NCBI RefSeq assembly: GCF_013403985.1
Contig: NZ_JABFDF010000005.1
Span: 1-64,000, forward strand
DNA length: 64,000 nt
Origin: Winogradskyella ludwigii
GTDB taxonomy: Bacteria > Bacteroidota > Bacteroidia > Flavobacteriales > Flavobacteriaceae
Reading direction: 5' to 3'
In this document: piece after piece, positions 8,401 through 41,331 of the stretch
Layout of the letters: each line of letters opens with the position of its first letter
How positions within the stretch are numbered: position 1 is the first letter of the stretch
Translations under genes and position numbers: made by a program
Notes under the pieces: model-generated
What the model saw: only the letters and a program-made list of their open reading frames with translations
The model's database searches: none
Told to the model about the DNA's origin: nothing

Positions 8401-9467
8401 GGATCCCATCCTTGTTGAACATAACCAGATTGAAAAGTTAAAGTTAAAGGTGTACCGTCTGTACTTGTAAAAGTGAACACTTCAGGATTTACAACTCCGT
8501 TATCACCATAGCACATAGACTCTACTAAAGGGCCAGCACTACAATCTACTATAAAATCTGTTTGTATTGGAGTTGTAAAAGTTAAGGGGCCCGCCCAAAT
8601 ACTATTACCATTTGTACAATTTGCTCTTACATATACCTCATACTCCATTCCAAATAATAAATCATTTTCAATAATATTTGTAACTGTAGACACTATACCT
8701 GAGGTTGGAATATCAGATCCAGAAGGCTGTATAACATACTCCCAAGACGTTTCACTATCATTAGCTACCCAATAAAAACTAGCAGATGCATTTGAATCAT
8801 TAGAATTGACATAATTAAGAGAAAGCGTTGGTGAGATACAAAATGTCCCACAGGTTTCTACACGCACCAAATCAATAGAAATATCTGCTCTACTACTAAA
8901 AGTGGCTCGTGTATTCTTAAATTCAAGATATATAGATTGCCCAAGATAAGCATCCAAATTAATACCTACCGGAACCCAAGCTTCAGAACTAGACGTCTGT
9001 AATTGACCAGCCCATGTAAATACATTTGTAAAGGGACCCGAAATTGAAGTAGAAATACCGACTTCCAATTCCCCCATATTATCACCATAAGCATGCATAT
9101 AAAAAGACAATTCAGCCCCATCTGTAGCTGTAGTAAGATCAATTACAGGACTAATGATTGATGCTGAGGCCTGGTTAGCATTACCTGAAGCCTCAAAATT
9201 CATATAATTAGAACCGCTAAATGCTGAACTTGGTCCGGTTCCGCTACTATCTGAATTACCCGGAACTTCCCAATTACCACCAATATTATTTGTTGTTATA
9301 TCACCTATCCATCCATCAGAATCATCAAATTCTTCTGTAAATACGTAAGTAGAATTATTAGAAGGACAAGACACCCCAACTGGTGAGGGTATTGTTTGAC
9401 ATAAAGCGATTGAACTCCCAAGCAAACAGAAAGCTAAAAAGGTCAGTTTGAAGATTTTCTTATTCAT
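5448..9467 (-). CDS. Large choice-of-anchor L adhesin with type B (gliding-associated) T9SS sorting domain
   Basis: This 1339-residue protein has a signal peptide (1-23), an N-terminal MAM/jelly-roll-like segment (about 40-200), a fibronectin III-like segment (about 210-300), and a cysteine-rich middle with pre-peptidase-like folds (about 305-655). A choice-of-anchor L domain follows (about 660-860, FDFLMASEEY), then Ig-like repeats (YHLSEQDV, YYMSQADA) and a type B gliding motility-associated C-terminal domain (about 1260-1339, containing LEIFNRNGMLVYS, NEWEGQ and GTYFYTMEY). Type B domains direct export by T9SS and typically need a SprF partner; one is encoded directly downstream. Expected location is the cell surface or medium. 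The core resembles the truncated gene at 1-2060, but the N-terminus differs. Ligand is unknown. Middle domain boundaries are approximate. Confidence 0.9.
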   Translation of the reverse strand: MNKKIFKLTFLAFCLLGSSIALCQTIPSPVGVSCPSNNSTYVFTEEFDDSDGWIGDITTNNIGGNWEVPGNSDSSGTGPSSAFSGSNYMNFEASGNANQASASIISPVIDLTTATDGAELSFYMHAYGDNMGELEVGISTSISGPFTNVFTWAGQLQTSSSEAWVPVGINLDAYLGQSIYLEFKNTRATFSSRADISIDLVRVETCGTFCISPTLSLNYVNSNDSNASASFYWVANDSETSWEYVIQPSGSDIPTSGIVSTVTNIIENDLLFGMEYEVYVRANCTNGNSIWAGPLTFTTPIQTDFIVDCSAGPLVESMCYGDNGVVNPEVFTFTSTDGTPLTLTFQSGYVQQGWDPLVVLDTNGSPIVAYTDYFFGDDGDLAGFSYTSSGNRISFYIASDDFLPSSCANGDLPMKNGINYTVACATCTNSESTYAFVDDCDNGDQYLIDVNVGSLGSATSLTLSNNIDLNTTSVTSAGIYQIGPFPFGVDVIYTLNNDQDFNCVFNSLPIQLAACIPENNDCLNAAVAVVNTDENCTQLNSGTLLSATPSGVPASSCSGDSDDDVWFQFIALNNSQIITFENIVVNGNSSGINHAVYEGSCGNLSELYCMDSTTSVTPQLVIGNTYFIRVFSEGSEAEDVTFDLCIKAGFNSIEVSDDSHTIEELIQDVLFGSDCANVSNITFSTGSSFDSGQPNGIGYFTMDGDEFPFGEGVLMSTGHAIAAAGPNNNLMSAGGGAWPGDYYLDNILGVDSRNATIIEFDFVPYSPNISFDFLMASEEYTGAIGGTDECNFSDAFAFFLTDSNDNTTNLAVIPNTNTPILTTNVHPQNTECAAINEAYFGEYITENLPPMNYNGRTAVFTAQSPVNIGEIYHIKLIVADDRDSQYDTGVFLKAGSFEIGELSLGDDITIDAGTASCSNEPIILDTHAPEFPHVWYKDGFVISGENSSTLTVTEPDYYDVQVVFSDDCMISDSILVEFLPAPTANSADDLFGCSTTNQALFNLAENDDVILGVQDSSEYTVTYHLSEQDVIDNLSALTSPYTNISNPQTIYARVQDNATGCFALTTFDLVTSTPAHTVESIDFIGCDFDNDGIVSFDLSEHNSFVLNGQDASLFNVTYYMSQADATLGTGAITGAYDSSGEMLFVRVESIDYINCYVTNSFNLVIGSEPVTNFPADFDYEVCPNTTTPIILEAIPENYSLSEVSIVWYRDGGVIDNQSSLSLPVLEAGLYEIEVIYNDTGCNEFTEITVIELETCVIPQGISPGVSPGQNDYFDLSSFNVTKLEIFNRNGMLVYSKKNYTNEWEGQTNEGKELPVGTYFYTMEYEGGAKTRSSWIYINR

Positions 9468-9542
9468 TTCAATTTTTATTTAATTCGGTAAAAAAAATTA
9501 GTCAATTTTTAAACAGACATCTGTTAAATCCTAAATCAATAA

Positions 9543-9578
9543 AAACAACAAAAGCCACATAGTAAAATTAAGTGGCTT
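9543..9578 (-). terminator. Rho-independent terminator after the fibronectin/anchor-J gene
   Basis: A 7-bp stem (9552-9558 with 9572-9578, GTGGCTT/AAGCCAC) and 13-base loop are followed on the minus strand by the T-rich tract TTGTTGTTTTTATT. It lies 18 bases past the stop codon of the 9597-12662 gene, separating it from the adhesin cassette downstream. Confidence 0.65.
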
Positions 9579-27254: not shown

Positions 27255-28148
27255 CTATCTTAAAAATTTATCTGCAACATATATAATTTGCAATAATGTA
27301 ATATAAAACACACTCGATAACATAAGTTGTTTCGCGGCCTTTATAGAGCGTTCCTTAAATAATCTTAATGCGTAAAACACCATTACTAAACCAAGTATAA
27401 AAACTAATACAGCACCAACAATAGACAATTTTAAATCGCCCGTAAACCCAAATACAGGTATTATGGATACTAATGTTGTCCATACACTATACATAATAAT
27501 TTGCACTGCAGTTCCTTTATCGGGCTTCCCTGTTGGCAACATGTGGAATCCTCCTTTTGTATAATCTTCGTGTAAAAACCAACCTATAGACCAAAAATGT
27601 GGAAACTGCCAAAAAAACTGAATAGCAAACAACATTCCAGGCTCAATACCAAAACTATTACGAGCTGCAACCCATCCTAACATAAAAGGAATTGCACCTG
27701 GTAAAGCTCCTACAAAAACAGATAAAGACGTTTTTGTTTTTAAAGGTGTGTAAACACTTGTGTATAAAAATATAGAAATAGCACCATACATCGCCGTCTT
27801 AGGATTTATAATATATAGTGTAATTAATCCTAGAATTGTAAAGGTCGTCGCAATTATGAATGCTGTATTTACAGACATTCTGCCTGCAGGAATTGGCCTA
27901 TTTTTGGTTCTATCCATGAGTGCGTCTAAATCGCGCTCAATAATTTGATTATATGCATTAGATGCTCCAACCATAAAATACCCTCCAAAAGCCAATAAAA
28001 CAATAGTAACCAAGCTTATAGTCTCTGCACCAAGAAAATAACCAGCAATTGAAGAAAACACAACACTAAGGGATAAACCCATTTTTGTGATTTCTTTAAA
28101 ATCTGTTACCAAACTAGCTGTTGATATTGAGGATTTTGTACTATTCAA
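27255..28148 (-). CDS. cyoE: Protoheme IX farnesyltransferase (heme O synthase)
   Basis: This 297-residue inner-membrane UbiA-family enzyme adds a farnesyl group to heme B, making heme O, the precursor of heme A for the oxidase. Prenyl-diphosphate binding motifs are visible: NAYNQIIERDLDALMDRTKNRP (the N-x-x-x-D-x-x-x-D type, about residues 65-86) and the loop near YTKGGFHMLP. There are eight or nine membrane segments. The start is TTG at 28148, since an in-frame stop lies two codons upstream and the next ATG would remove 22 residues that include a family-like N-terminus. A consensus promoter lies just upstream, and subunit III, III and IV genes follow. Confidence 0.93.
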   Translation of the reverse strand: MNSTKSSISTASLVTDFKEITKMGLSLSVVFSSIAGYFLGAETISLVTIVLLAFGGYFMVGASNAYNQIIERDLDALMDRTKNRPIPAGRMSVNTAFIIATTFTILGLITLYIINPKTAMYGAISIFLYTSVYTPLKTKTSLSVFVGALPGAIPFMLGWVAARNSFGIEPGMLFAIQFFWQFPHFWSIGWFLHEDYTKGGFHMLPTGKPDKGTAVQIIMYSVWTTLVSIIPVFGFTGDLKLSIVGAVLVFILGLVMVFYALRLFKERSIKAAKQLMLSSVFYITLLQIIYVADKFLR

Positions 28149-28409: not shown

Positions 28410-29273
28410 ATGAAAACGATAACAAAACTATCTATTCTAACTTTATTCCTTACATTAAACATCCAAGCCCAACGCTTTGATAAGGTTACCATAAAACCTA
28501 CAAAACTAACGGAACGTGTTTACATGCTAGAAGGTGCTGGCGGAAATATTGGAGTCTCTGTTGGAGATGATGGTGTTTTTGTAATCGATGATCAGTTTGC
28601 TCCACTTTCTGAAAAGATTTTAACAGCAATAAAAACTATAAGTGATAAACCGCTTAAATATTTAGTAAACACGCACTACCATGGAGATCATTCTGGTGGT
28701 AATGAAAACATGGCTAAAGCTGGAGCTGTAATCATTGCTCATGATAATGTTAAGAAACGCTTAGTGGAAAAGGAATCTCCAAAAGAAGCCTTACCTGTAA
28801 TTACTTTTAATGATCAATTAAACATCTCAATTAATAATGAAAGTATCGCAGTATTTCATGTTGCAAATGCACACACAGATGGTGATGCCTTACTTTATTT
28901 TACAGAAAGCAATGTATTGCATACAGGAGATACTTTTTTCAACGCACGTTATCCTTATATAGATTTAGATTCAGGTGGAAGTGTTAAAGGGTATATTGAA
29001 GCTGTAAAAAAAGGATTAATGCTTATTGATAGTGATACCAAAATTATTCCAGGACATGGAGAGCTAGCTAATAAAGAAGATTACAAAACGTTTTTAACAA
29101 TGCTTGAAACACTTCAAAGTAATATTCAACAAGCCATTGATGCTGGAAAGTCAGAAGACGACGTTAAAATGGACACAAGCCTCACTAAAGTCTATGACGA
29201 TTTAGATTATGGTACTGGATTTATTAATAGTAAAAAAATTAGAGTTACGTTTTACAACAGCTTAAAACTATAA
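28410..29273 (+). CDS. Secreted MBL-fold metallo-hydrolase
   Basis: This 287-residue protein has a signal peptide (1-20, ending IQAQ) and a metallo-beta-lactamase fold. The zinc ligands are visible: H89, H91, D93 and H94 (THYHGDH), a later histidine in NAHTDGD, an aspartate in HTGDTFF, and a histidine in IPGHGEL. All ligands for two zinc ions are present, so it should be active. This exported group is common in Flavobacteriaceae; whether it acts on beta-lactams or another ester or amide is not shown by the sequence. A near-consensus -7 box TATCTTTA is at 28372-28379. It converges on remB with a 5-base gap. Confidence 0.9.
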   Translation: MKTITKLSILTLFLTLNIQAQRFDKVTIKPTKLTERVYMLEGAGGNIGVSVGDDGVFVIDDQFAPLSEKILTAIKTISDKPLKYLVNTHYHGDHSGGNENMAKAGAVIIAHDNVKKRLVEKESPKEALPVITFNDQLNISINNESIAVFHVANAHTDGDALLYFTESNVLHTGDTFFNARYPYIDLDSGGSVKGYIEAVKKGLMLIDSDTKIIPGHGELANKEDYKTFLTMLETLQSNIQQAIDAGKSEDDVKMDTSLTKVYDDLDYGTGFINSKKIRVTFYNSLKL

Positions 29274-29278
29274 TAATT

Positions 29279-31387
29279 CTAAAAATCGTTATACCAATTA
29301 AATAAGTCTGTACGTAAACCTATACTAAACCAAAGTGTATTAGAATCTTGAGTTGATGCAGTGATAGCATCTGGGTTAAAATCTCTATATATAATATTTG
29401 TAAACACTTTTAAGTTAGTCGTTGGATTTAATACATAACCTGCTTGAATCTCTGTCATAAAACTATTTGTTTTATTTCCCTGACCTATCTCAATACCTGT
29501 ATCTGCATTACGATCGTTATAATCCCTGTAAATATCTCCGCCATAAGAAAAGCTATCTTCATCAGTATTAAAATCAAAACCTCGCTTACCTACTATAAAT
29601 TTAGCATCACCAAACCATCGTTTATAATTATACCTTCCAATTAACAATAATTCTTTGAAATTTGCTCCCCAAAGATGTGCCATTGGTTGATTGAAATTTG
29701 CATAGTTAAGAATTTGAGTGTTGTGCGAATACGTGTAAGGTCGCACCTGATTGTACTCTGCTTGGATTAGTAAATTATCAACATCAAAAGCATTAAAATA
29801 CTTAACACCTAATTGATAGCCATATTTATTCTTCCAACTTTTATCACCCGCTTTCACATCACTTAAAGAGAATTCATCTAAAATAAATTGCCCATAAAGA
29901 TTCACTTTATTGTTCCATTTGTATTTAGAAGAAAGGCCCAATATGGCATTACCAGCACCTTGACCAGTTTGAAATTCGATAGCTCTAAAAAATATAATTG
30001 GGTTTAAATAATTAACATCAAAACCTCTTCCGTTACTATCTGACCATACAACAGATTCAAAAAAACCAATATTCAAGCGTTTAGAAACATTCCAACTTAA
30101 ATAATGATTGGCCATATATTTCGTTAAAAAGGCCTTGTCTTCAATTACTTCATCTCTAACATCCTTTAACCACATCCAAGTACTGGTATATTTAATCTTC
30201 CAGAACGTCGCATTTAATTTTAAGAATGGATAGGGGCTAGAAACATCACTTTGCAATAATGAACGGTAACCATCTCCTATAAAGTTTTTACCATGACCAA
30301 ATTGAATATTTAAAAAATCTGCAGGTGTATAAGACAAATAGGCTTCCGCTACTGGATAATCATAAGAATTGTCTTTAAAACTTTTAGCAATACCACGACC
30401 TGGTATAATAGCTGGATCTGGTCCAAATGCTTTTAAACTTTCTGCAAACTGATTAAAATAGTCTGCAAAACGTCCTTGACTTTCATAAACCGAAGCTGTT
30501 AAATTAAAGCGTTTTCCTAAACCGGCTTGTATATTAATCCCTCGAGTATTATTCCACGTAGAACTGAAATCTGCTTCAGTATCCTTACCTACTTGCAAAT
30601 CCAAAATTGGGTCTACAGTAAACCAATAGTCTTTACCTTGTACTTCTACTAAATGTTCATTAAATATTTTTTTACCTAACCAAGAACTTGTTTCTTTTGC
30701 TAAGCTTTCTTTTTCGGCCTTAATATCATAATACCTCGCTACATCACTATATACAAATGGTTTTGCTCCAGTATGGCTATTAGTCCCAATAGCATTCATT
30801 TCGTCATCGAAGCGTGCATAATACGAATGTGTAAAAGGAATATTAAGTTGGCTATTATATTCTAATTTATCGTAGGCTTTAATTTCTTTAGTAATATCAT
30901 CGAACTCACTAGATAAAACAGCATTAATACTGTCTTTAACTATAATCTTATCTGGATCTATAGGCTCATTTACTTTTAAAACAGGCTCAACTAATGGTAT
31001 TGCAATACTAATACTATATTGAACAAATGTTGGATTACCATTATAGGTTCCTGGTTGTATTTTAGGTAGTGAATCAAAAACACGTTTGCTTTCTTCTTTT
31101 AATTCTTCATAAATAGCATCTGTATAAATTGCTTTAAACTCACCTTCTTTATTTACTTCGAATAAGACTTTAATATCTCCTACGTAAGATTCATCTATAA
31201 CAATTTGAGGTATTTTAAAGTTTTCATAAATAAAACTATTCAATGTAAAATTGAAACAAGACTTTAATTGATCTACAGCTACAGAATCACATTCTTTAAA
31301 AACTGGAGATTTCTCGTAAGTCAATACCGTTTGGGCATACCCAAAAGTGGTAGTTAATAGAATAGCAAATAGCACTATGCGCTTCAT
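29279..31387 (-). CDS. remB: Gliding motility outer-membrane protein RemB with N-terminal TonB-C-like domain
   Basis: This 702-residue protein has a signal peptide (1-18, ending FGYAQ), an N-terminal domain (about 25-135), and a long C-terminal beta-barrel-like part rich in aromatic strands ending LRTDLFNWYNDF. RemB of Flavobacterium johnsoniae is needed for spreading and lies close to sprA; here too the gene follows sprA, gcvH, vanZ and tonB. The N-terminal domain resembles the C-terminal domain of the adjacent TonB proteins: a cysteine pair ten residues apart (FKECDS...LKSCFN), then a strand FEVNKEGEF, then ESKRVFDSLPKIQPG. In TonB the matching part is EAKRVIGQLPKMKPG. Identification as RemB rests on size, architecture and synteny. 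Confidence 0.75.
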   Translation of the reverse strand: MKRIVLFAILLTTTFGYAQTVLTYEKSPVFKECDSVAVDQLKSCFNFTLNSFIYENFKIPQIVIDESYVGDIKVLFEVNKEGEFKAIYTDAIYEELKEESKRVFDSLPKIQPGTYNGNPTFVQYSISIAIPLVEPVLKVNEPIDPDKIIVKDSINAVLSSEFDDITKEIKAYDKLEYNSQLNIPFTHSYYARFDDEMNAIGTNSHTGAKPFVYSDVARYYDIKAEKESLAKETSSWLGKKIFNEHLVEVQGKDYWFTVDPILDLQVGKDTEADFSSTWNNTRGINIQAGLGKRFNLTASVYESQGRFADYFNQFAESLKAFGPDPAIIPGRGIAKSFKDNSYDYPVAEAYLSYTPADFLNIQFGHGKNFIGDGYRSLLQSDVSSPYPFLKLNATFWKIKYTSTWMWLKDVRDEVIEDKAFLTKYMANHYLSWNVSKRLNIGFFESVVWSDSNGRGFDVNYLNPIIFFRAIEFQTGQGAGNAILGLSSKYKWNNKVNLYGQFILDEFSLSDVKAGDKSWKNKYGYQLGVKYFNAFDVDNLLIQAEYNQVRPYTYSHNTQILNYANFNQPMAHLWGANFKELLLIGRYNYKRWFGDAKFIVGKRGFDFNTDEDSFSYGGDIYRDYNDRNADTGIEIGQGNKTNSFMTEIQAGYVLNPTTNLKVFTNIIYRDFNPDAITASTQDSNTLWFSIGLRTDLFNWYNDF

Positions 31388-31512: not shown

Positions 31513-32307
31513 TTAGTTACTCACCTGATATGAAATTGGTAAAGTATAAATAACACCTACTGGCACATTACCTTGTATACCTGGTTTCATTTTAGGAATC
31601 TTATTAATCACTCGGTTTGCTTCTTTCTCTAAAGCAGGATGCGGACCTCTAATTTTCACATCAGACACATTACCCAATTTATCAATGGTAAACTGCGTAT
31701 AAATTTTCTGTTTTCCAGAAATACCGTAGTTTGAACCTATATCTACATTGAATTTTTTTCCAATTAATTTTGTGATTTTATCAGACATACATTTTTTTCG
31801 ATCCATATTAGTTGAGTATTTTTCGCAACCAGGATAAACAGGTACTTTTTCTACACTAATAAAATCTACGATTACAGGATCCTTTACCTTTTCAATATTT
31901 GGGATGTCACCGACTTTAAAAGGGACATCAATTTTAGATTTAGAATCTACAGGAACATCGACAACGGTTTGAATAACTGGGTCATCATCTTTTACAACCT
32001 TAAATACATCTTTTAAATCTACACTTGGCTTTGGTGTGGGCTGTTTAACCTTAACCTCTTCTACAACATAAGGAGGCACATAGTCTATTGTAAGTGTCTC
32101 TGCATAAGCAGTGTCTTCTACAAGTTTGAACTTTTGCTCTTGAAACTGCATTTCAAAAAGTGCATACGTACCCAATAAACAAAGAATCAAACCTATTTGG
32201 AAATAAAGGGTTGAGTTTTTTTGTAAATTTGCATCATGCTTTTGTGATTTCTTTACTTCAGTAGAGCTCTGACCAGCAATACCGAAGTCTTTGTTAGAAT
32301 TCTTCAT
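31513..32307 (-). CDS. tonB: Energy transducer TonB, second copy
   Basis: This 264-residue protein has one N-terminal membrane segment (about 33-52), a proline-poor periplasmic linker with acidic and valine-rich stretches, and a TonB C-terminal domain (about 155-262). The domain begins VPVYPGC, has a cysteine pair spaced by 11 residues (C and C in PGCEKYSTNMDRKKC), and contains FTIDKLGNVSDV, RGPHPALEKEA and NKIPKMKPG. TonB couples the proton gradient, through ExbBD, to outer-membrane receptors. It is a paralogue of the next gene (32427-33155), with which it shares all C-terminal motifs but not the linker. It is flanked by terminators on both sides. Confidence 0.92.
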   Translation of the reverse strand: MKNSNKDFGIAGQSSTEVKKSQKHDANLQKNSTLYFQIGLILCLLGTYALFEMQFQEQKFKLVEDTAYAETLTIDYVPPYVVEEVKVKQPTPKPSVDLKDVFKVVKDDDPVIQTVVDVPVDSKSKIDVPFKVGDIPNIEKVKDPVIVDFISVEKVPVYPGCEKYSTNMDRKKCMSDKITKLIGKKFNVDIGSNYGISGKQKIYTQFTIDKLGNVSDVKIRGPHPALEKEANRVINKIPKMKPGIQGNVPVGVIYTLPISYQVSN

Positions 32308-32426: not shown

Positions 32427-33155
32427 TTAGTCTTGCACTTGAAACACAATAGGAATAGAGAATGGCATAACCACTGATTTTCCTCTTTGTTTACCTGGCT
32501 TCATTTTAGGAAGCTGACCGATAACACGTTTTGCTTCTTTCTCTAATCCTGGGTGAGGACCACGAGCTACAATACTAGTTATGTTACCTGTTTTATCTAC
32601 TTTAAACTGAACAAAGATTCTCTTTTTGCCAGGAGGCAATCCTAAATCTCCAGCTAAGTCTGTATTAAACTTTTTACCGATAAATTTATTCACCTTTTCG
32701 TTCATACATGCTTTTTTAGCAGCATTCCCTTTTTTATTTTCACAACCAGGGAAAACAGCCACATTCTCAATAACAGAAAATGGAACTTCTAGATCTTCCT
32801 CTACTTCTACAACTTCTACTTCTTCAACTTCCACAATTTCTGTTTCCATTTCTGTTTCAGTCGATTCTATAACTGTTTCCTCTACTTCTACCTCATCTTC
32901 TACAACTTCAATTATTTCTGGAGCTGCTGGTGGTGGCGGTGGTGGTGGTGGCGGTGTAACAATTTGTTCTGTAACTGGCACTTCTTCATCTAGATCATCA
33001 TCTAAATTTAGAGAGTCTGCAATGACATCGATTTTATCGTAAGTTTTGTAGTTAATTGCCATGTAAGTTATACCTAACATTAAGGCAAGACCAACAGCAA
33101 AGTACAGCGAACTGTTTCTACTTACGTCTGATTTCGGATTTTTTTTAGGTTCCAT
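32427..33155 (-). CDS. tonB: Energy transducer TonB, first copy, with proline and acidic linker
   Basis: This 242-residue protein has a membrane segment (about 14-31), a nine-proline run (about 66-74) and a long linker of glutamate-valine repeats (about 80-120), then a TonB C-terminal domain (about 130-242). The domain begins VAVFPGC, with a cysteine pair spaced by 11 residues, then FKVDKTGNITSI, RGPHPGLEKEA and GQLPKMKPGKQ. The linker is a rigid extended arm of the kind needed to span the periplasm. It lies downstream of vanZ-like and gcvH on the same strand, with 66 bases between, and upstream of the second TonB after a terminator. Confidence 0.93.
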   Translation of the reverse strand: MEPKKNPKSDVSRNSSLYFAVGLALMLGITYMAINYKTYDKIDVIADSLNLDDDLDEEVPVTEQIVTPPPPPPPPPAAPEIIEVVEDEVEVEETVIESTETEMETEIVEVEEVEVVEVEEDLEVPFSVIENVAVFPGCENKKGNAAKKACMNEKVNKFIGKKFNTDLAGDLGLPPGKKRIFVQFKVDKTGNITSIVARGPHPGLEKEAKRVIGQLPKMKPGKQRGKSVVMPFSIPIVFQVQD

Positions 33156-33221: not shown

Positions 33222-33584
33222 TTATTTTAATTCATATATATTTATTTGACGTGCAATTAACGTACCAAAAAGGGCACCTATACTATTTGCAATCAAATCA
33301 TACGTATCATACGTTCTATTGGGATTAAAAAGGTATTGTAACAATTCTAATATAAAACCAAGAAAGGCAGCAGCAAAAAACACTTTAAAAGGAATGTCCT
33401 TTGTTTTAAAGGGTTTAAAATAAAAAGTCCACAATCCAGCTAAACCAAGATACGCAATAACATGATAAATTTTATCATCGAAAGACGAGCCTAAACTTGG
33501 CACGGCATTTAGAGTAATTAAACTGGCAACAATTAACGCTAATGTATACGCTATCGCGACAAGTAAAAACACTTTTTTAACCAC
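33222..33584 (-). CDS. VanZ-like small membrane protein
   Basis: This 120-residue protein has four membrane segments (about 4-25, 42-58, 66-86, 96-113). It fits the VanZ-like family: YHVIAYLGLAGLW in the second helix, FAAAFLGFILELLQYLF in the third, and DTYDLIANSIGALFGT in the fourth. The family is named for a teicoplanin-resistance gene, but most members have no tested function. It overlaps gcvH by eight bases, so the two are translationally coupled; this linkage beside sprA is common in Flavobacteriaceae to my knowledge. Confidence 0.85.
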   Translation of the reverse strand: MVKKVFLLVAIAYTLALIVASLITLNAVPSLGSSFDDKIYHVIAYLGLAGLWTFYFKPFKTKDIPFKVFFAAAFLGFILELLQYLFNPNRTYDTYDLIANSIGALFGTLIARQINIYELK

Positions 33585-33957
33585 TAATAAGTGCTTTATA
33601 AGCGTCTGCAGACAATAAGTTCTCTATTTGAGATTCGTCTGAGAATTTTAATTTAATCATCCAACCAGCTCCATAAGGGTCCGAATTTACATTTTCTGGT
33701 TCATCTTCTAAACCTTCATTAAATTCAATTATTTCACCTGATAGTGGTAAAAATAAATCTGAAACTGTTTTTACAGCTTCAACAGTACCAAAAACTTCAT
33801 CTACTTCTAAGGTTTCATCTAAAGTTTCTACTTCTACATAAACAATATCACCAAGTTCTCCTTGAGCAAAATCGGTAATTCCGATAATTGCTACATCTCC
33901 TTCAATTTTTACCCACTCGTGGTCTTTGGTGTATTTTAATTCTGATGGTATATTCAT
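33577..33957 (-). CDS. gcvH: Glycine cleavage system H protein
   Basis: This 126-residue protein matches GcvH along its whole length: start MNIPSELKYTKDHEWV, FAQGELGDIVYVE, and the lipoylation site in GTVEAVKTVSDLF with K63 as the lipoyl lysine. It carries the aminomethyl intermediate between the P and T proteins in glycine cleavage. No other gcv gene is in the window, so it is expressed apart from the rest of the system. A promoter at 33983-34012 precedes it and overlaps the end of sprA; the VanZ-like gene overlaps its end by eight bases. Confidence 0.97.
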   Translation of the reverse strand: MNIPSELKYTKDHEWVKIEGDVAIIGITDFAQGELGDIVYVEVETLDETLEVDEVFGTVEAVKTVSDLFLPLSGEIIEFNEGLEDEPENVNSDPYGAGWMIKLKFSDESQIENLLSADAYKALISG

Positions 33958-34014: not shown

Positions 34015-37000
34015 TTAATTACCAAAATTATAACGTAAAGTAATTCCTGATCTTAAAGAGGTCTGTGGGAATGACGTTGATATGGCAAATTCAGAAAAAG
34101 TATAATCAAAATAAAATATAGCGGTTAAGTTCTTACTAAAGGCATAATCTGCATTGTACTTAAGTCCCCAAATTGTCTGACCTGCTGTAATTTGATTGTT
34201 ATCTAAATCTAAATATCTAATAATGGTTTTATTGTCTCTAACGGTAACATCTAAACTCATGTTTAAATCACTAACAACAATCTGTTTTGGTCCTGCAAGC
34301 TGAGATCTAATTCTTAAATCTTTAATACGGTAACCTAATCCTAGTGTGTATTCTTTACCTTGTATTTCGGTCATTAAATTATTATCAAAACTTAATGATA
34401 ATGTTCTATCTGTTTTAATTTCTGCTAAGACTTTAATTGAGTTTTTCATTTCAAAATCTAAACGCACCAATGGACTAAATTGCTCTTCTAAGTTAATGTT
34501 ACTATAAAGTGTTTCAGATTTAAAATTACCTGCAGCATCTAAAGCATCTGCGTTTCCAGGAGCCGTAAACCCTAAATCTAAATCATAGTCTTCATAATCT
34601 AAATTAGTTCTAAACTGATTTATAGTATATCGAGATCTGTAACCATGTTGGACTGAAAAACGTTTAAAGGTTTTCTTAAACCATGGTAATTTCATCAACC
34701 CAGTATACTTTAACGTCCAATTTGGAATTGGAACATCACGAAATGCATCTGTACTTACTTTATTTGGATCTGTACCTTGATAAGCAGATAAAAAAGCTGG
34801 TAATAATACACGTTGGCTATTTTTTCCGAAACCTTCAGGATAACCTTCTGCATCTGTACCAAATGGTGTAGTACCATAAAAATCTTTAGCTAAACGATTT
34901 GCTAAAACTAATCGGTTTGCTCTAAAATCGTTAAAAGTCGCTGATTGGTTTTCGTCACTTTTACTAAAAGCCGTTTTAATCATTGTGGTAGAAATATTAA
35001 AATTACCATAAGAATTGGTAATTAAATCTTCGTATACATCACTAAAACCGTCACCTGTAATATCTACCGCTATAAAACTTTCTGTAACATTATTAGCATA
35101 CGTTCTGTTTCCTATTAAATCGATTTTTAAATCTCTCATAGGCTCAACGTTAACTGAATAATCGAGGGTTTTATTTTCTACCTCTGTATATTGTTCGTTA
35201 AAATTGTCATATGTAGTTAACCAACCGTTACTTGCTGATAAATCTCTAATATTACTTTGGCTACCAAAGGTGTAACCTAAAGTAGGTTTTAATGTTCCAA
35301 CAAAACCTGGCGTTGGTAAATATCCTGGTAAAAATGTACCATTGTTTTCAGTATAACTAAACTGGACCCGCTTAACCATTGTTACAACACCAATTAGTGT
35401 ATTATAAGCTTGCTTTCCTGCACTTAACTTATTTGGGTCTTTTGCTTCTCCATCTTTACCGTCTAATGAAGCATCTGGTGTTGTTGAACGTTGCCTTGGA
35501 GCTGAACTTCTAGTACGTCCTTTAACTTTGGGTTTCCCTTTTTTAACTAAACCTAATGTTTTATATAAGGTTTCCATATTAAGGGTTGTATTAATATTAT
35601 GCGTATTAGAGTTTTGAATAGAGTTTCCTAAATTCACAGTTTCATAAAGACCCGTATCTTCATCTAGCACCTCTAATCCTGTATTTAAATCGGATCCTTT
35701 TTGCCATTGAAATGCTCCGTTATAAGCATACGTTGTTCTTAAGAAATTTAATGCTGGTATCTTGTATAAAGGCAGTTCATAATTTAATTGAAATTGCTGC
35801 GTTTGGAAATTAGGATCTCCAAAATCAAAGAAACCATCCCAAACATTAAGTTCTGAATCTTGTACTCCGTTTATACGATCATCAATAAAATAATTACGAA
35901 CAATATTAGTGTTAGCTGCTGTAAAGTTTAAACTCAAAGCATCTGTAAGGTTATAATTTATAGCATACTGAAAATCGAAGGTGTAATTCCTTCTATATAG
36001 TTCTTCTATTCCAATATTACCAGCTTCCAATTCTACTTCTCTAAATTTTTGTCTGCTAAACTGTCTATTAATATCTGTATTTACTGAAATATTTGATGGC
36101 AATAAATTAAGATTGAAATCTTTTAGTAATTTCCAATTTTTCCCTGTAAATAGTGAATCATTATCTTTAAATGGTTCATATTTTAAGGGTTCAAATGCAA
36201 AACTATAATTAGCTCCCGCTCTTACCGTTTGGTCTAGTGAATTTTCAATTTCGAAATCGCGATGCTCTACTTTATTATATGAATAATTAAACGTTAGATT
36301 TTCTACATCGTAAACACGTCGTTTAGAATCTCCTGTTTTTTGCTTTCTTACTCCTATAAAATTAATACTTTGTCGTTTGGTATAATCTTCAGACTGCTCA
36401 CTAATTTGATCTGCCTCACTTTCGCTAGTGGCAGCATCTATTCTCGATTCTAGTGTAAGATCATTATAATATTGATCGAATTTAGGTGTTATTAACTCTT
36501 CACTCTGAGCATAATTAAATGGGACTTGAACTCCCCATTTTTTTGGTAATAATTGCCCTAATTGTATGTTAGTAACAACATCATATTGCTTAACATCTTC
36601 TAAACTTCGTTCGCTTGGTCCTTGTTCTACACCACCAAAACCAACAGTACTTCTTCTTCCTGTTGCACTGATATTTGCAAAATCTGCAATTTGAGTATCC
36701 ATGCTTAAAACGGCTGCCCAACCTCCTTCGTTGTCCATATCAGACATACGCAGCTCGTTAAACCAAACTTCTCCACATGAACTCATCCCTGTAGATCCGG
36801 AATTTTTTACACCAACCATTAATACTCTAATATCTCCAAAATTTGGATTTCCTTTAATCCCAATACGTTGTTGTTTTTGAGTACCTACAATATCTGCATA
36901 AGGAACGTTTATTGAGCTTAATGCTGATTCATCTAGAACACCATCTACAACATTATAAATGGTAGGATCTTCATTACTTAATGTTCCTGCAGATATACCA

Positions 37001-40000
37001 AGTGCTTTTATTTTTTGTAAAAATTCTAATGGTATTTCAATTTCATTTTGTTCTGGCCAAACACGTTCTCTTGCACTCCCTTCTGCATCTGAAGAAGGCA
37101 ATAATGGAACTTCAATCTGATAGTAGTTTTGTGTAAAATCATTACCCATTCTAATAAATCCAACCATTTCGGCAGGTTCTAAAAGTGCTCCTTCTTGAGC
37201 TTCTGCGTGAATAAACATACGTAGTTTCTTATACTGACGCATATCTATACTAATGTTTTTGTAAACACCGTGAGAATCTGTAGGTTCCAAATCACAAGCC
37301 TGAAGTACTAATGATTGTTCATTCTGTCTTATAATACTATTATTATTATTTAACTCTTCTTGCTCTACTCCTGGTGGTCTTAAATAACCTGCGTTATCTT
37401 GAACACTAACAACACCTACACTAAATTCTGGATTAACACTATTGTTGGTATCATCGTTATCCAAATCTAAAGCATATTGTCTCCAATCACTTCTTACCAA
37501 ATCTAAACTAGCAAAACGTAATACCGTATTTTCTGTAAAATCTGAAACATACAAACGTGCAAAACGAATTGAACGAATATCTGAAATACCACCGATTGAT
37601 TCCCGAATATCACTTTCTCCAATTGGAATTCTAAACTGATACCATTTTACATCTCTAGAATCACCATTTGGTAAGGTTACTGTATTTTCTTTGATATCAT
37701 TAATTATTGGGTTATCAATGTTTAATACAGCACTATTAATGTCTACTTCATATTGATAATAGCTATCAATAGTATTCATCGTGTTATCTCTATTAATATC
37801 CTCAACATCTGGTTGTGTTGTAGATCCTCTATTGGTATCGGTAAAAGTCTCTGGTGTGTTTCCTTGTGTACCATTATATTTTTTATAACGGTTAAAAACA
37901 TCCCCATCTGTATTTAAATAATACTGATAATTATCATTTGATGGATCATCTCCAAATAGTCCACCAAATTCTGCAACTTCTTCTGCATCATTGAAACCAT
38001 CAAAACCTACATCTTGATTTATACGTTCTGTTCCTGTAGTTCCAAAGGTGTAAATAAGAGATTGATTTTGAGGTACCACACCTCCAAAGTCTGTTCTCTC
38101 TAAAGTAGAAACATCTCCATCTTCTGGCAAACCGTTTTCATAGAGTTTTTTACCATCCCTTAGAATATCTTCTGAGATATTACCTAGGTTTAAAAATAAC
38201 TTACCGCCTGGGTTTGATGGATTATCTAAAAATGGATCTTGAACCCAAAATTCTATATATTCTACATTAGATTGTTCAAAATCCGTAGATGTAATTTGCC
38301 TTGTTATACCAGCCCAACTTCTTGACCCATCTAAAGCTGCGTTATTCGCAGCAGTTGGATCAAAGTTATAAGGACCACGTTCTGTCGGATAATATGCCAA
38401 ATCTAACGTGTTTATTACAGAAGTTTGCCCTTGTACAATATCTTGGTTAAATATTTCTTCGATAAAAACACGGCGTGTGTATAAATCGCTCATATCGTCG
38501 TCAGTGATACCACTTGGACGTTGTGTACTATAAAAAATAGGATCAATAGTATACCAGTTTAAGAGTGCTCTACCATAACCATTTTCCGGCCCATTAAAAT
38601 CACCTCCAGGAACGGTATTTGGTAAATCTATAGGACGACTCGATAACGTCCATGATAATGGACTTAATAAATCTATAGCTCCTTGTGTGCCTTCAAAATC
38701 ATCTATATATGCTGTAGCCTCATCATCGAAATCTGCTCCACTAGATGCACCTGGTAATAGATATGCAAACTCTCCTCTTAAAGAAAGACTAGATGGTACA
38801 TCTGTATCTATATTAGGTAATTTGTTAACCATTCTAGTTAAAAACGGAACTTCAGTTGAGTAATTCCCATTAAATCCAAAAATAGTATTGTTGATAGGTT
38901 CTGAATTGAAATTAGCTTTTTGGGTAATTGGACGTTCATTAAGGTTTAATAAGGTAGCGCCCAAAACAAAATTCTCGTTGAATTGATGCTCTACATTAAT
39001 CCCTGTAAAACGTTTTGTTTGCTGACCAAAAACAGCATTATTTTCTACGGACACATTAATTGGAGTGTTAGATGCTTTTAAAGCTTCGTCTAAAATCTCT
39101 ACACGTCCTAATTGATAATTCACGGTATAATCTACTCCTTCTACAAGCGTGCGACCACCAGCTGTTACAGTTACAGAACCTCTAGGTACATTAAATGCAC
39201 CTATAGGAATACCACTATCTCCTCCACTACTTTTATACGTTCCCTTTATTTGGAATTTATTCTTTTCTGCTTCATTTAAGGCATCTGTCTTCGTAGACTT
39301 ATAAAGAATATCGTAAACGTATTTCTTTTGATTTTCATTGAAACCACTTTGAGTATCTGTAATATCATCATAGTCTATGGTGTTATTACCTGAATTACCA
39401 TCATCATCTAAAACATCGAATAAGTAACGACCAAAAGGTTCTTTTTTAGTGAAAATAATTTTACCGTTTTGCGATAATACTGTTACTCCTTCAACATAAT
39501 CAAAGAAACCATCACCAAGTTCTTGCGGATCTCCATTATAATTCAATTTATCTAAATGAAAAAGTCTAATTAATGGAGTTTCTCTTATTTCTGTATCATC
39601 AGCAGTATTAACGGTATTGTTATCAAAGGTTGGAAACGGAACTTCAACGCCACCAACAACTGCAGGTGTTATGTAATTTAATGCAGACGATTCTGTATAA
39701 AAGATATTAAGTTTAAAATCCTCTTGATCTAATTGATATGAACCTGTATCATAGATGTTTTTCATCATTAAATCCCAAATAGGTTGTTCCACAGAAGTCA
39801 CGGCACTTTTTAGCATTTTTAGTACCAAACTTTGATTACTTACAACTTCAGTACCAGAACTATCGTCTACAGTAGTTGCCTCTACACCATCAGTAGCAAA
39901 TTCACCGACTTGAAATACTTCTCCTCCAATAGTATATTGAAATGCAACTGCTAAAACCTCGTCATTTAATAAACGTTGACTTAAAGAAATATATCCTAAA

Positions 40001-41331
40001 TCTGCATTTAAAACGTACTCTTGATTTTCTACTAACTTTCTTGCAGACTCTAATTTCCCGTAATCAAAACCTTCTTGAATACTAATATTTACGCCACCTT
40101 GTACATTGGTAATGTTTCTAACTCCTTCCGTTAATACAGATCCAGCACCTCCTATATTAGTTGGATCAAAATCATTATTTTCATTATCTGGTTTTGCTCC
40201 TAGATTATTCACAAAACCAGCTGGTATTGGGTCAAGTCCTATGTTAGCTGCTGTAGATTCTCCTAAATCCTGAAATGCAACAATATTTCTAACATTATCT
40301 GTTTGGTTATTCCTGTTAGTAACCCAAACTTCTACTCTAGTAATATTTAGGCCTTGGTTATCTATAAAAGGATATTGCAACAATGCTTTATCATAGTTTT
40401 CACTAAAGTATTGTGATAAGAAAAAGTGTCTGTTTTCGTCGTAATCTTGTGCAAAGAACTCAAATTCTTCTACAGTTCCTCCTCCTTCTACAACAACAGA
40501 TGTTGATTCTGACTGTTGCTCAGAAAATACGGCTGTAACCCGAGTTTTTCCAAATTGCAATTCTGTTTTCACACCAAAGAGACTCTGCGCACCTGTGATT
40601 AGAGAACTGTTTAATGGCATGCTAACGTTACCTACTTCAATTTTACGTATAATATCATCTTCAGTTGGAGTGTATTCTAACTTTACTACTTGTTGAAAAT
40701 CGAAGGTTGCTTCAGTATCATAATTCGCAGTCACTTGAAGTCGTGTTCCTACTTTCCCTAATAAACTTAAGCTAATTCTCTGATCAAAATCAAAGGTGAA
40801 ATTTGTTCTATTCTGCGGTGAAATAGACGGGTTATCTTGTTTTGAAAACAAAATACCTAAATCTACCTCTACAGAACCTTGAGGTATAACATTTATGGTG
40901 TTTCCTCCAAATATGGTTTCAAACAAACCAGAATTCACATAAAATTCGGGTAATAAATTCTTCTGATCTTCTTCTGAACCTTCTTTTTGTCCAGCTTTAG
41001 CATCAGCCATTTTTTTATAATATGCTTTTAATTTTTCTTGCAATACCAGTTCTTGATATTCTGCTGGTGTAAGAATTAAAGGGTAATTGATACTAAAATC
41101 CCCAATCTTTTCAGAGTAAACATAACGATCTAAAACGGCATCGTAAGTATATTTTGAAACAATGCTACTTGGATTTGGCATATTTAATTTACCAAATGCA
41201 TATGTTGTTTTAGTTGAATCTTGTTCTGTTTCTTGGGCATTTACTAAATTACCAACTAGCATAATTAAGGCTAGTACGTAAAAACACCTATAAGGAAAGC
41301 GTTGCTTATGTGGAGATCTATTCAATTGCAT
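34015..41331 (-). CDS. sprA: T9SS outer-membrane translocon protein SprA
   Basis: This 2438-residue protein has a signal peptide (about 1-32, ending NLVNAQ) and the size and architecture of SprA, the 36-stranded outer-membrane barrel through which T9SS cargo leaves the cell (about 2400 residues in F. johnsoniae). Its N-terminal part contains LNMPNPSSIVSKYTYD and LTPAEYQELVLQEKLKAYY, conserved in the family. Many strand-like repeats follow, and the last strand ends in FPQTSLRSGITLRYNFGN. It is essential for secretion and gliding. Its ATG shares one base with the ruvA stop (TAATG), so the two are translationally coupled. gcvH follows. No frameshift was seen over the full length. Confidence 0.96.
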   Translation of the reverse strand: MQLNRSPHKQRFPYRCFYVLALIMLVGNLVNAQETEQDSTKTTYAFGKLNMPNPSSIVSKYTYDAVLDRYVYSEKIGDFSINYPLILTPAEYQELVLQEKLKAYYKKMADAKAGQKEGSEEDQKNLLPEFYVNSGLFETIFGGNTINVIPQGSVEVDLGILFSKQDNPSISPQNRTNFTFDFDQRISLSLLGKVGTRLQVTANYDTEATFDFQQVVKLEYTPTEDDIIRKIEVGNVSMPLNSSLITGAQSLFGVKTELQFGKTRVTAVFSEQQSESTSVVVEGGGTVEEFEFFAQDYDENRHFFLSQYFSENYDKALLQYPFIDNQGLNITRVEVWVTNRNNQTDNVRNIVAFQDLGESTAANIGLDPIPAGFVNNLGAKPDNENNDFDPTNIGGAGSVLTEGVRNITNVQGGVNISIQEGFDYGKLESARKLVENQEYVLNADLGYISLSQRLLNDEVLAVAFQYTIGGEVFQVGEFATDGVEATTVDDSSGTEVVSNQSLVLKMLKSAVTSVEQPIWDLMMKNIYDTGSYQLDQEDFKLNIFYTESSALNYITPAVVGGVEVPFPTFDNNTVNTADDTEIRETPLIRLFHLDKLNYNGDPQELGDGFFDYVEGVTVLSQNGKIIFTKKEPFGRYLFDVLDDDGNSGNNTIDYDDITDTQSGFNENQKKYVYDILYKSTKTDALNEAEKNKFQIKGTYKSSGGDSGIPIGAFNVPRGSVTVTAGGRTLVEGVDYTVNYQLGRVEILDEALKASNTPINVSVENNAVFGQQTKRFTGINVEHQFNENFVLGATLLNLNERPITQKANFNSEPINNTIFGFNGNYSTEVPFLTRMVNKLPNIDTDVPSSLSLRGEFAYLLPGASSGADFDDEATAYIDDFEGTQGAIDLLSPLSWTLSSRPIDLPNTVPGGDFNGPENGYGRALLNWYTIDPIFYSTQRPSGITDDDMSDLYTRRVFIEEIFNQDIVQGQTSVINTLDLAYYPTERGPYNFDPTAANNAALDGSRSWAGITRQITSTDFEQSNVEYIEFWVQDPFLDNPSNPGGKLFLNLGNISEDILRDGKKLYENGLPEDGDVSTLERTDFGGVVPQNQSLIYTFGTTGTERINQDVGFDGFNDAEEVAEFGGLFGDDPSNDNYQYYLNTDGDVFNRYKKYNGTQGNTPETFTDTNRGSTTQPDVEDINRDNTMNTIDSYYQYEVDINSAVLNIDNPIINDIKENTVTLPNGDSRDVKWYQFRIPIGESDIRESIGGISDIRSIRFARLYVSDFTENTVLRFASLDLVRSDWRQYALDLDNDDTNNSVNPEFSVGVVSVQDNAGYLRPPGVEQEELNNNNSIIRQNEQSLVLQACDLEPTDSHGVYKNISIDMRQYKKLRMFIHAEAQEGALLEPAEMVGFIRMGNDFTQNYYQIEVPLLPSSDAEGSARERVWPEQNEIEIPLEFLQKIKALGISAGTLSNEDPTIYNVVDGVLDESALSSINVPYADIVGTQKQQRIGIKGNPNFGDIRVLMVGVKNSGSTGMSSCGEVWFNELRMSDMDNEGGWAAVLSMDTQIADFANISATGRRSTVGFGGVEQGPSERSLEDVKQYDVVTNIQLGQLLPKKWGVQVPFNYAQSEELITPKFDQYYNDLTLESRIDAATSESEADQISEQSEDYTKRQSINFIGVRKQKTGDSKRRVYDVENLTFNYSYNKVEHRDFEIENSLDQTVRAGANYSFAFEPLKYEPFKDNDSLFTGKNWKLLKDFNLNLLPSNISVNTDINRQFSRQKFREVELEAGNIGIEELYRRNYTFDFQYAINYNLTDALSLNFTAANTNIVRNYFIDDRINGVQDSELNVWDGFFDFGDPNFQTQQFQLNYELPLYKIPALNFLRTTYAYNGAFQWQKGSDLNTGLEVLDEDTGLYETVNLGNSIQNSNTHNINTTLNMETLYKTLGLVKKGKPKVKGRTRSSAPRQRSTTPDASLDGKDGEAKDPNKLSAGKQAYNTLIGVVTMVKRVQFSYTENNGTFLPGYLPTPGFVGTLKPTLGYTFGSQSNIRDLSASNGWLTTYDNFNEQYTEVENKTLDYSVNVEPMRDLKIDLIGNRTYANNVTESFIAVDITGDGFSDVYEDLITNSYGNFNISTTMIKTAFSKSDENQSATFNDFRANRLVLANRLAKDFYGTTPFGTDAEGYPEGFGKNSQRVLLPAFLSAYQGTDPNKVSTDAFRDVPIPNWTLKYTGLMKLPWFKKTFKRFSVQHGYRSRYTINQFRTNLDYEDYDLDLGFTAPGNADALDAAGNFKSETLYSNINLEEQFSPLVRLDFEMKNSIKVLAEIKTDRTLSLSFDNNLMTEIQGKEYTLGLGYRIKDLRIRSQLAGPKQIVVSDLNMSLDVTVRDNKTIIRYLDLDNNQITAGQTIWGLKYNADYAFSKNLTAIFYFDYTFSEFAISTSFPQTSLRSGITLRYNFGN

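Follow-up and report, generated by a model that had tools for sequence, protein, structure and literature searches.

RemB is grouped with the adhesin-like proteins of gliding motility in the sections that we consulted of several publications (PMC4572689, PMC4891872, PMC4910214, PMC6801697). The gene of Flavobacterium johnsoniae (Fjoh_1657), listed there under adhesin-like proteins, is located four locus numbers from sprA (Fjoh_1653; PMC4572689), and the remB-sprA spacing in Gillisia limnaea is the same (PMC3570806). According to the consulted text, remB is missing together with remA and sprB from two non-gliding Flavobacterium species (PMC6801697), and it is present in F. suncheonense, which is listed as non-gliding (PMC4910214). 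The C-terminal domains (CTDs) of TonB and TolA are described as binding their targets by β-strand addition (PMC12204202), and the outer-membrane proteins SprF and PorG as being disulfide-bonded to GldK (PMC12635249). In the openly accessible literature that names RemB together with Flavobacterium (subscription papers lay outside this search) we found no account of the domains of RemB. TonB domains outside of TonB are already known, as are Wzi barrels; their joining has, to our knowledge, not been described. Here we analyze the RemB-like outer-membrane protein encoded in a 64,000-nucleotide stretch of the Winogradskyella ludwigii genome (the window), and suggest, with a probability of about 0.58, that RemB of the Flavobacteriaceae is a composite of a Wzi-like, polysaccharide-derived barrel and a periplasmic TonB-type docking domain.

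The initial annotation of this locus had proposed, from the sequence alone, that the N-terminus of RemB resembles the CTDs of the two TonB proteins encoded beside it, and this proposal has been borne out. RemB residues 19-150 align in BLASTP with the C-terminal 125 residues of both TonB2 (29% identity, E 3e-13) and TonB1 (24%, E 3e-10; E values for a two-sequence database). The corresponding Smith-Waterman scores exceed those of 2000 shuffled versions of the RemB segment by 19 (TonB2) and 14 (TonB1) standard deviations, and no shuffle (0/2000) attained the score of either real alignment. A profile of the RemB domain matches a TonB CTD profile in hhalign at 99.2% (E 3.6e-19). Furthermore, a TonB-only profile, built from 116 CTDs of related loci without any RemB, recognizes the N-termini of all 79 RemB proteins (31-73 bits, median 50; all counts of 79 omit an 80th protein, L160, whose frame is broken), whereas decoys made by reversing the RemB sequences score at most 0.5 bits. 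The core residues that RemB and the TonB CTDs have in common are, in RemB numbering, E25, P28, C33, C44, F57, G70, F76, G82, L96, E99, R102, V103, P108, and P112. The motif E-x-KRV-xxx-LPK-x-xPG, claimed for all three proteins, is exact in RemB and TonB2, but TonB1 reads NRV and IPK instead. Judged by these sequence comparisons, residues ~25-132 of RemB are homologous to the CTDs of both adjoining TonBs.

The structure of the N-domain was predicted with AlphaFold2 from an alignment of 75 RemB N-domains (74 of the 79 relatives plus the window protein) that contained no TonB; the resulting model has a mean predicted local distance difference test score (pLDDT) of 92.2 and a predicted template modelling score (pTM) of 0.84. 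When this model is compared with the PDB by Foldseek, the nine best rows are TonB or FusB CTDs (best, 6i97_D, E 1.8e-3), and no row reaches an E value of 0.001. VIA-align likewise places 6i97_D first (Z 8.2; 86 residues superposed at a root-mean-square deviation [rmsd] of 2.2), on a par with TolA domain III (1lr0, Z 8.0), and all 22 rows with a Z of at least 5 are TonB, FusB or TolA domains. The tool warns that a Z of ~8 can reflect a common arrangement, a doubt that is answered here by the sequence homology to TonB CTDs. Residues ~25-132 are thus predicted to take the TonB/TolA-CTD fold, including the last strand of the CTD (E104-112 of the model); from the fold by itself, TonB and TolA cannot be told apart. 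A search of PDB sequences with the N-domain profile gave six matches, none of them a TonB, which we take as spurious (best E 0.0008, a PPR design, followed by PUF60).

Two cysteines are invariant in this domain, both in the RemBs (79/79) and in the TonBs of the same loci (116/116). Their spacing is as originally described, the two being separated by 10 residues in RemB and by 11 in both TonB1 and TonB2. In a set of 149 domains, 62 of which come from other loci and proteins, both cysteines are present in 148, neither is present in one, and a single cysteine is never found. Since the two residues are kept or lost only as a pair, a disulfide within the domain, as suggested by the initial annotation, would account for the pattern, and Cys33 and Cys44 of RemB probably form it. 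Because the TonBs share the cysteine pair, it is specific neither to RemB nor to gliding. The one domain lacking both cysteines belongs to a 308-residue protein encoded elsewhere in the window genome (L007, contig C25 near 168000).

The main body of RemB looks like a Wzi-type outer-membrane barrel. In a full-length model based on the window protein and 58 of the 79 relatives, short helices are followed by 18 long strands from residue 254 on (our own count of the listed elements). In VIA-align, the Wzi barrel 2ynk ranks first (Z 23.2, rmsd 3.3, 369 aligned residues, covering residues 179-694; next Z 18.3); Foldseek ranks it second, with the top TM-score by target length among the rows listed (0.62). 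The Pfam family PF14052 (Caps_assemb_Wzi) has no match in the RemB of the window, and a domain-free relative (L106) matches it with E 7.9e-7 and 28.8 bits, just under the cut-off of 30.1.

The genes next to the homologues that lack the N-domain tell a similar story. For every one of the 19 loci outside the family of the window, the scan covered the gene directly upstream (for L085 as the same gene in L256); it covered the downstream gene in part of them. In 14 of the 19, the upstream gene is a core polysaccharide gene: Polysacc_synt_2 in seven (L082, L083, L089, L091, L093, L095, L100), Glycos_transf_4 in five (L084, L086, L090, L092, L094), Glycos_transf_1 in L085, and Bac_transf in L102. In L256, genes of flippase, Wzy, sulfotransferase, epimerase and glycosyltransferase type run ahead of the homologue. 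In three loci of family f7 (L082, L083, L100), exosortase-type (EpsH) genes come after it, pointing to an exopolysaccharide/exosortase cluster. Since fold and gene context agree, the ancestor was probably a Wzi-type polysaccharide barrel, and the barrel of RemB would most likely descend from proteins that hold or export surface polysaccharide. In the Flavobacteriaceae, remB is no longer found among polysaccharide genes, so that a present-day role can only be read from this ancestry; on that reading, the barrel may still bind polysaccharide.

How widely is the domain kept? The best 80 genome-contig loci of a larger number all carry it (80/80), one of them (L160) with the frame broken inside the domain. 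As this set favors close relatives, the figure says little about distant ones. A broader sample contained a RemB match at E ≤ 1e-20 in 150 of 249 genomes of the family of the window, the other 99 being without such a match. Among the matches listed, some of which are fragments, the one-piece family matches of three genomes (G270, G365, G371) extend to the C-terminus but begin at residues 170-176 and hence lack the domain, and in the order-wide sample the RemB-like matches outside the family begin at 176 or later. In 40 chosen loci, the domain is present in 18, all of the family of the window, and absent from 22, three of the same family and 19 of other families of the order (0/19). Most RemBs of the Flavobacteriaceae thus have the domain, and the question raised initially, namely whether RemB homologues keep the features of the domain, is answered in the affirmative for near relatives: the TonB-only profile and the cysteine pair recur in every one of the 79 proteins. 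L160 itself (7464-9565) is the remB of Lacinutrix himadriensis, split into two frames inside the TonB-type domain by either an assembly error or a real break.

The domain-bearing remB genes also share a neighborhood. In 16 of the 18 domain-bearing loci, sprA is found in the stretch, and in 15 of these a tonB gene as well, at a distance from remB of 32 to 4087 bases (within 130 bases in seven). None of the 22 domain-free loci has sprA in the stretch; two of them (G008, G270) have it farther off on the same contig. In 13 Flavobacterium loci, a relative is located near sprA and the domain is kept in all 13, and tonB is missing from the stretch in 12. Sequences from other families show what this arrangement may have been built on. 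A TonB-type gene follows sprA-gcvH in 11 of 12 sprA stretches from outside families (all but G021), and therefore the linkage of sprA and tonB is probably older and remB joined it. In two genomes of family f7 (G007, G059), the order is sprA-gcvH-VanZ-tonB-tonB-inositol phosphatase-cyoE without remB, and G116 has a similar order plus a 270-residue gene. Domain-free remB genes are found beside cyoE/cox genes in L085 (family f8), L086 (f14) and L090 (f11). In the simplest scenario, remB would have arrived behind tonB and picked up a CTD. The adjacent tonB may have been the donor, a suggestion that fits the neighborhood and falls short of proof.

Trees bear on the same point. In the tree of the domains, 35 RemB domains fall on one side of a branch with support of 93/90, present in 91% of 200 bootstrap trees (the bootstrap had not settled), and in the free tree they fall on the side of the TonBs of the sprA locus. 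We infer one early gain of the domain followed by later losses, with three changes needed on the barrel tree. One loss is directly visible: the protein of G365 is nested in a domain-bearing clade (99/94) and must therefore have lost its domain. The placement of G270 and G371 is left open by the tree.

A number of findings weigh against the composite reading, and should be considered together. The domain-bearing proteins do not form one clade in the barrel tree; of the three changes needed, starred branches force two, and two domain-bearing proteins (L070, L073) share with domain-free barrels a fork whose order is not settled. The domain is not indispensable, since G365 lost it and kept the barrel. 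The best TonB match to the RemB domain within the window genome is located elsewhere and not in the adjacent tonB genes, and keeping the RemB domains off the side of the adjacent TonBs gives a tree that scores slightly higher (approximately unbiased test, p 0.593). For the barrel, the full-length model is of only moderate quality (pLDDT 74.5), and six of seven domain-free relatives have no Caps_assemb_Wzi match in Pfam. In five of the 19 outside loci, the gene immediately upstream is not a core polysaccharide gene: L087 and L088 have a hexapeptide transferase there, L101 has a polysaccharide deacetylase 880 bases off, and L105 and L106 have neither a polysaccharide gene nor a hexapeptide transferase or deacetylase. 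Polysaccharide genes are no longer found around remB at the sprA locus of the family of the window, and in the two domain-free family loci scanned, out of three, G365 has only a hexapeptide transferase and G270 no polysaccharide cluster. Finally, Pfam TonB_C (PF03544) gives the RemB of the window 14.7 bits, and the domain alone 18.9 bits, both under the cut-off of 24.6. The TonB_C search suggested by the initial annotation thus stays below the threshold for the window protein itself, but 61 of 75 RemB N-domains match at E ≤ 0.01 (best 1.4e-9). One might take a score under the cut-off as a sign of chance or compositional similarity; this is ruled out by the shuffles, the reversed decoys, the profile-profile comparison and the predicted fold, and we give it practically no credence.

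Where the domain resides and what it does can be approached from the architecture of the protein. With an even number of barrel strands and a signal peptide at the N-terminus, both ends of the barrel would face the periplasm, and so would the N-domain, which would be stiffened there by one disulfide. Having no membrane helix and no reach to ExbB/ExbD, the domain cannot transduce energy by itself. We consider it most likely to be a periplasmic docking module that would take up a strand of a periplasmic partner by β-strand addition, in the manner of TonB and TolA domains; its partner would not be an ordinary TonB box.

Its surface seems to have been rebuilt for another partner and then kept, as far as aligned residues can tell. 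The mean net charge is -3.7 for the 79 RemB domains, versus +4.6 for TonB1 (53 domains) and +6.2 for TonB2 (63 domains), with overlapping ranges; it is negative in 67 of the 79 RemB domains and positive in 109 of the 116 TonB domains. The [G/A]-P-[H/D] motif occurs in 86 of the 116 TonBs and in 0 of the 79 RemBs. Position 77 is E in 79/79 RemBs but in none of the TonBs (0/116; K in 87); Y at position 115 is found in 78/79 RemBs and in 0/116 TonBs (Q in 110), and position 90 is mostly D in the RemBs (61) versus R in the TonBs (106). Before the last strand, residues 114-116 read T-Y-N in RemB versus K-Q-R in TonB. E77 (79 of 79), Y88 (75), T114 (73) and Y115 (78) are nearly invariant among the RemBs and specific to them, which suggests a specific surface. 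The ratio of non-synonymous to synonymous substitution rates (dN/dS) in ten Winogradskyella-type sequences is lowest in the barrel (0.044) and highest in the linker (0.344), with 0.115 for the N-domain (23 of 45 pairs could be used, and none attained 1); synonymous divergence is near saturation, with 23 to 33 of the 45 pairs usable. By this measure, the N-domain is under purifying selection.

Several other functions can be envisioned for the domain, among them the sensing of energisation during gliding that the initial annotation also considered. It could bind TonB boxes and compete with TonB for the same ligand, as the initial annotation had proposed; the predicted fold is the same and the last strand is present, but the reversal of the mean charge, the loss of [G/A]-P-[H/D], and the replacement of K-Q-R by T-Y-N before that strand have weakened this idea to the point that we hold it to be very unlikely. 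The opposite charges would rather fit a domain that is itself a target of TonB. TonB CTDs dimerize in crystals, and remB and tonB are near each other at most of the loci seen, so that the CTD of TonB1 or TonB2 might grip the RemB domain and thereby transmit inner-membrane force to a barrel that holds polysaccharide. Such a RemB driven by TonB is nevertheless unlikely, given that 12 of the 13 Flavobacterium loci keep the domain with no tonB in the stretch (tonB possibly being elsewhere), and that co-loss of TonB and the RemB domain was not found in the 10 genomes tested, a TonB2-like gene being present in every one of them (10/10), the three that lack the RemB domain included.

A more modest role, as a static spacer or a peptidoglycan tether under the barrel with no specific protein partner, would agree with the faster evolution of the domain compared to the barrel and with its loss from proteins whose barrel stays. 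It fits less well with the near-invariance of E77, Y88, T114 and Y115, two of which (E77, Y115) never occur at these positions in the TonBs, and we regard it as doubtful. A covalent link of RemB to the gliding track through its cysteines, with a precedent in the same machinery in the bonds of SprF and PorG to GldK (PMC12635249), might be suspected from an invariant cysteine pair in the putatively periplasmic part of an outer-membrane protein. Since the pair is also present in all TonBs of these loci and is kept or lost jointly, it is a feature of the domain family, and RemB is not named in the main text of PMC12635249; we consider this explanation extremely unlikely. The docking module stands as our preferred reading of the N-domain.

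The features of the window locus are collected in the table below. Upstream of remB in its reading direction follow the genes for TonB1, TonB2 and the VanZ-like protein, gcvH and sprA. Among named relatives, the protein of W. pacifica comes closest, with 88% identity. No useful match for RemB came from NCBIfam, and a Tox-HDC match to residues 505-564 (E 0.016, under the cut-off), located in the barrel, was dismissed. Between remB and cyoE, a convergent gene (28410-29273, plus strand) encodes a secreted hydrolase of the metallo-β-lactamase fold, as judged by eye; it is present in some genome-contig remB loci and missing from others.

Features of the remB locus in the window (positions refer to the window)
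Feature	Position	Strand	Basis
RemB-like outer-membrane protein, 702 residues	29279..31387	(-)	Open reading frame; alignable relatives in 80 genome-contig loci (the best 80 of more); placement relative to sprA matches Flavobacterium loci and printed locus numbers (PMC4572689, PMC3570806)
Signal peptide, residues 1-19 (...GYAQ), without lipobox cysteine	31331..31387	(-)	Read by eye; model helix 2-17
TonB-CTD-type domain, residues ~25-132	30992..31315	(-)	Alignment, profiles, predicted fold
Cys33, first of invariant pair	31289..31291	(-)	79/79 RemBs
Cys44, second of invariant pair	31256..31258	(-)	79/79 RemBs
Variable linker, residues ~133-177	30857..30991	(-)	Low pLDDT at 139-153; dN/dS 0.344
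Wzi-like body (residues 178-702), a helical segment followed by a barrel of 18 predicted strands	29282..30856	(-)	Predicted model, structure search
TonB1	31513..32307	(-)	Pfam: TonB_C 35.6 bits, over cut-off 24.6
TonB2	32427..33155	(-)	Pfam: TonB_C 31.9 bits, over cut-off 24.6
VanZ-like gene, part of conserved neighborhood	33222..33584	(-)	
Presumed gcvH, part of conserved neighborhood	33577..33957	(-)	
sprA, type 9 secretion translocon	34015..41331	(-)	Matches TIGR04189 (surface_SprA) genes of relatives
Gene that we take to be cyoE-like, flank on other side of remB	27255..28148	(-)	

The connection of RemB with gliding appears to be one of gene position and of published record. GldJ scores over its cut-off in all 20 of the RemB-carrying genomes checked and in 19 of the 20 that lack RemB; it fails to separate the two groups, and genome content hence does not tie RemB to the gliding track. 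If the composite reading is correct, RemB would be a Wzi-type barrel with a captured TonB domain and no secreted adhesin, and a TonB domain would have found a second use as a barrel's arm in the periplasm, opposite to where it normally sits. An unexplained gliding gene would then split into two testable claims, one on the holding of polysaccharide and the other on what the periplasmic domain grips. A further step, in which RemB would anchor polysaccharide and be coupled mechanically to motors of the inner membrane via the captured domain, is speculative and in our estimate rather unlikely. Were it true, TonB or another periplasmic force transducer would pull or reposition surface polysaccharide held by the barrel, and slime or capsule handling would be joined with energy transfer and gliding in the Flavobacteriaceae.

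The RemB domain occupies an unusual place when it is compared with other proteins that carry it. With the TonB CTD (PF03544) of the Flavobacteriales it shares the predicted fold, the core residues and the cysteine pair; unlike in TonB, it is N-terminal, directly after a signal peptide and ahead of the barrel, without a membrane helix or a proline-rich spacer, so that the layout of the TonB energy transducer is not found, and it is acidic on average rather than basic and has lost [G/A]-P-[H/D]. The initial annotation had called a TonB CTD at the N-terminus of a barrel unusual, and a class-wide sample of 60 genomes agrees: among the non-RemB frames of at least 450 residues listed, the domain match runs into the stop codon in four (and is thus C-terminal), and the fifth is a tandem protein of the window genome, as read from frame lengths and stops. 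The latter, an 803-residue frame (L003, contig C11 near 812000) that resembles by eye an M56/BlaR1-type membrane peptidase, has two TonB-type domains in tandem in its C-terminal half. Elsewhere in the same genome (L005, contig C24 near 194500), two adjacent proteins of 152 and 292 residues have what looks by eye like a signal peptide, together with a TonB-type domain that bears the cysteine pair. Like RemB, L003 and L005 represent TonB-type domains outside of TonB, but there the domain is C-terminal or in tandem.

With the Wzi lectin (2ynk; PF14052), RemB shares the helical segment and the barrel over residues 179-694, and its domain-free relatives mostly follow polysaccharide genes; it differs from Wzi in an identity of 14%, the lack of a PF14052 match, the additional TonB-type domain, and a location at the sprA locus instead of a capsule cluster. 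SprF and PorG, like RemB, reside in the outer membrane of gliding Bacteroidota and have cysteines that matter for function, according to the consulted parts of PMC12635249; the twin cysteines of SprF, however, are located in its C-terminal tail and form the bond to GldK, while the pair of RemB belongs to a domain family that is also present in TonB. RemB of F. johnsoniae, finally, is likened to the protein studied here by its locus position, its printed spacing to sprA matching that of the 13 Flavobacterium loci. RemB of the Flavobacteriaceae would combine one cysteine-paired copy of a TonB CTD, set between signal peptide and barrel and encoded near the tonB genes of the sprA locus, with a body that resembles Wzi.

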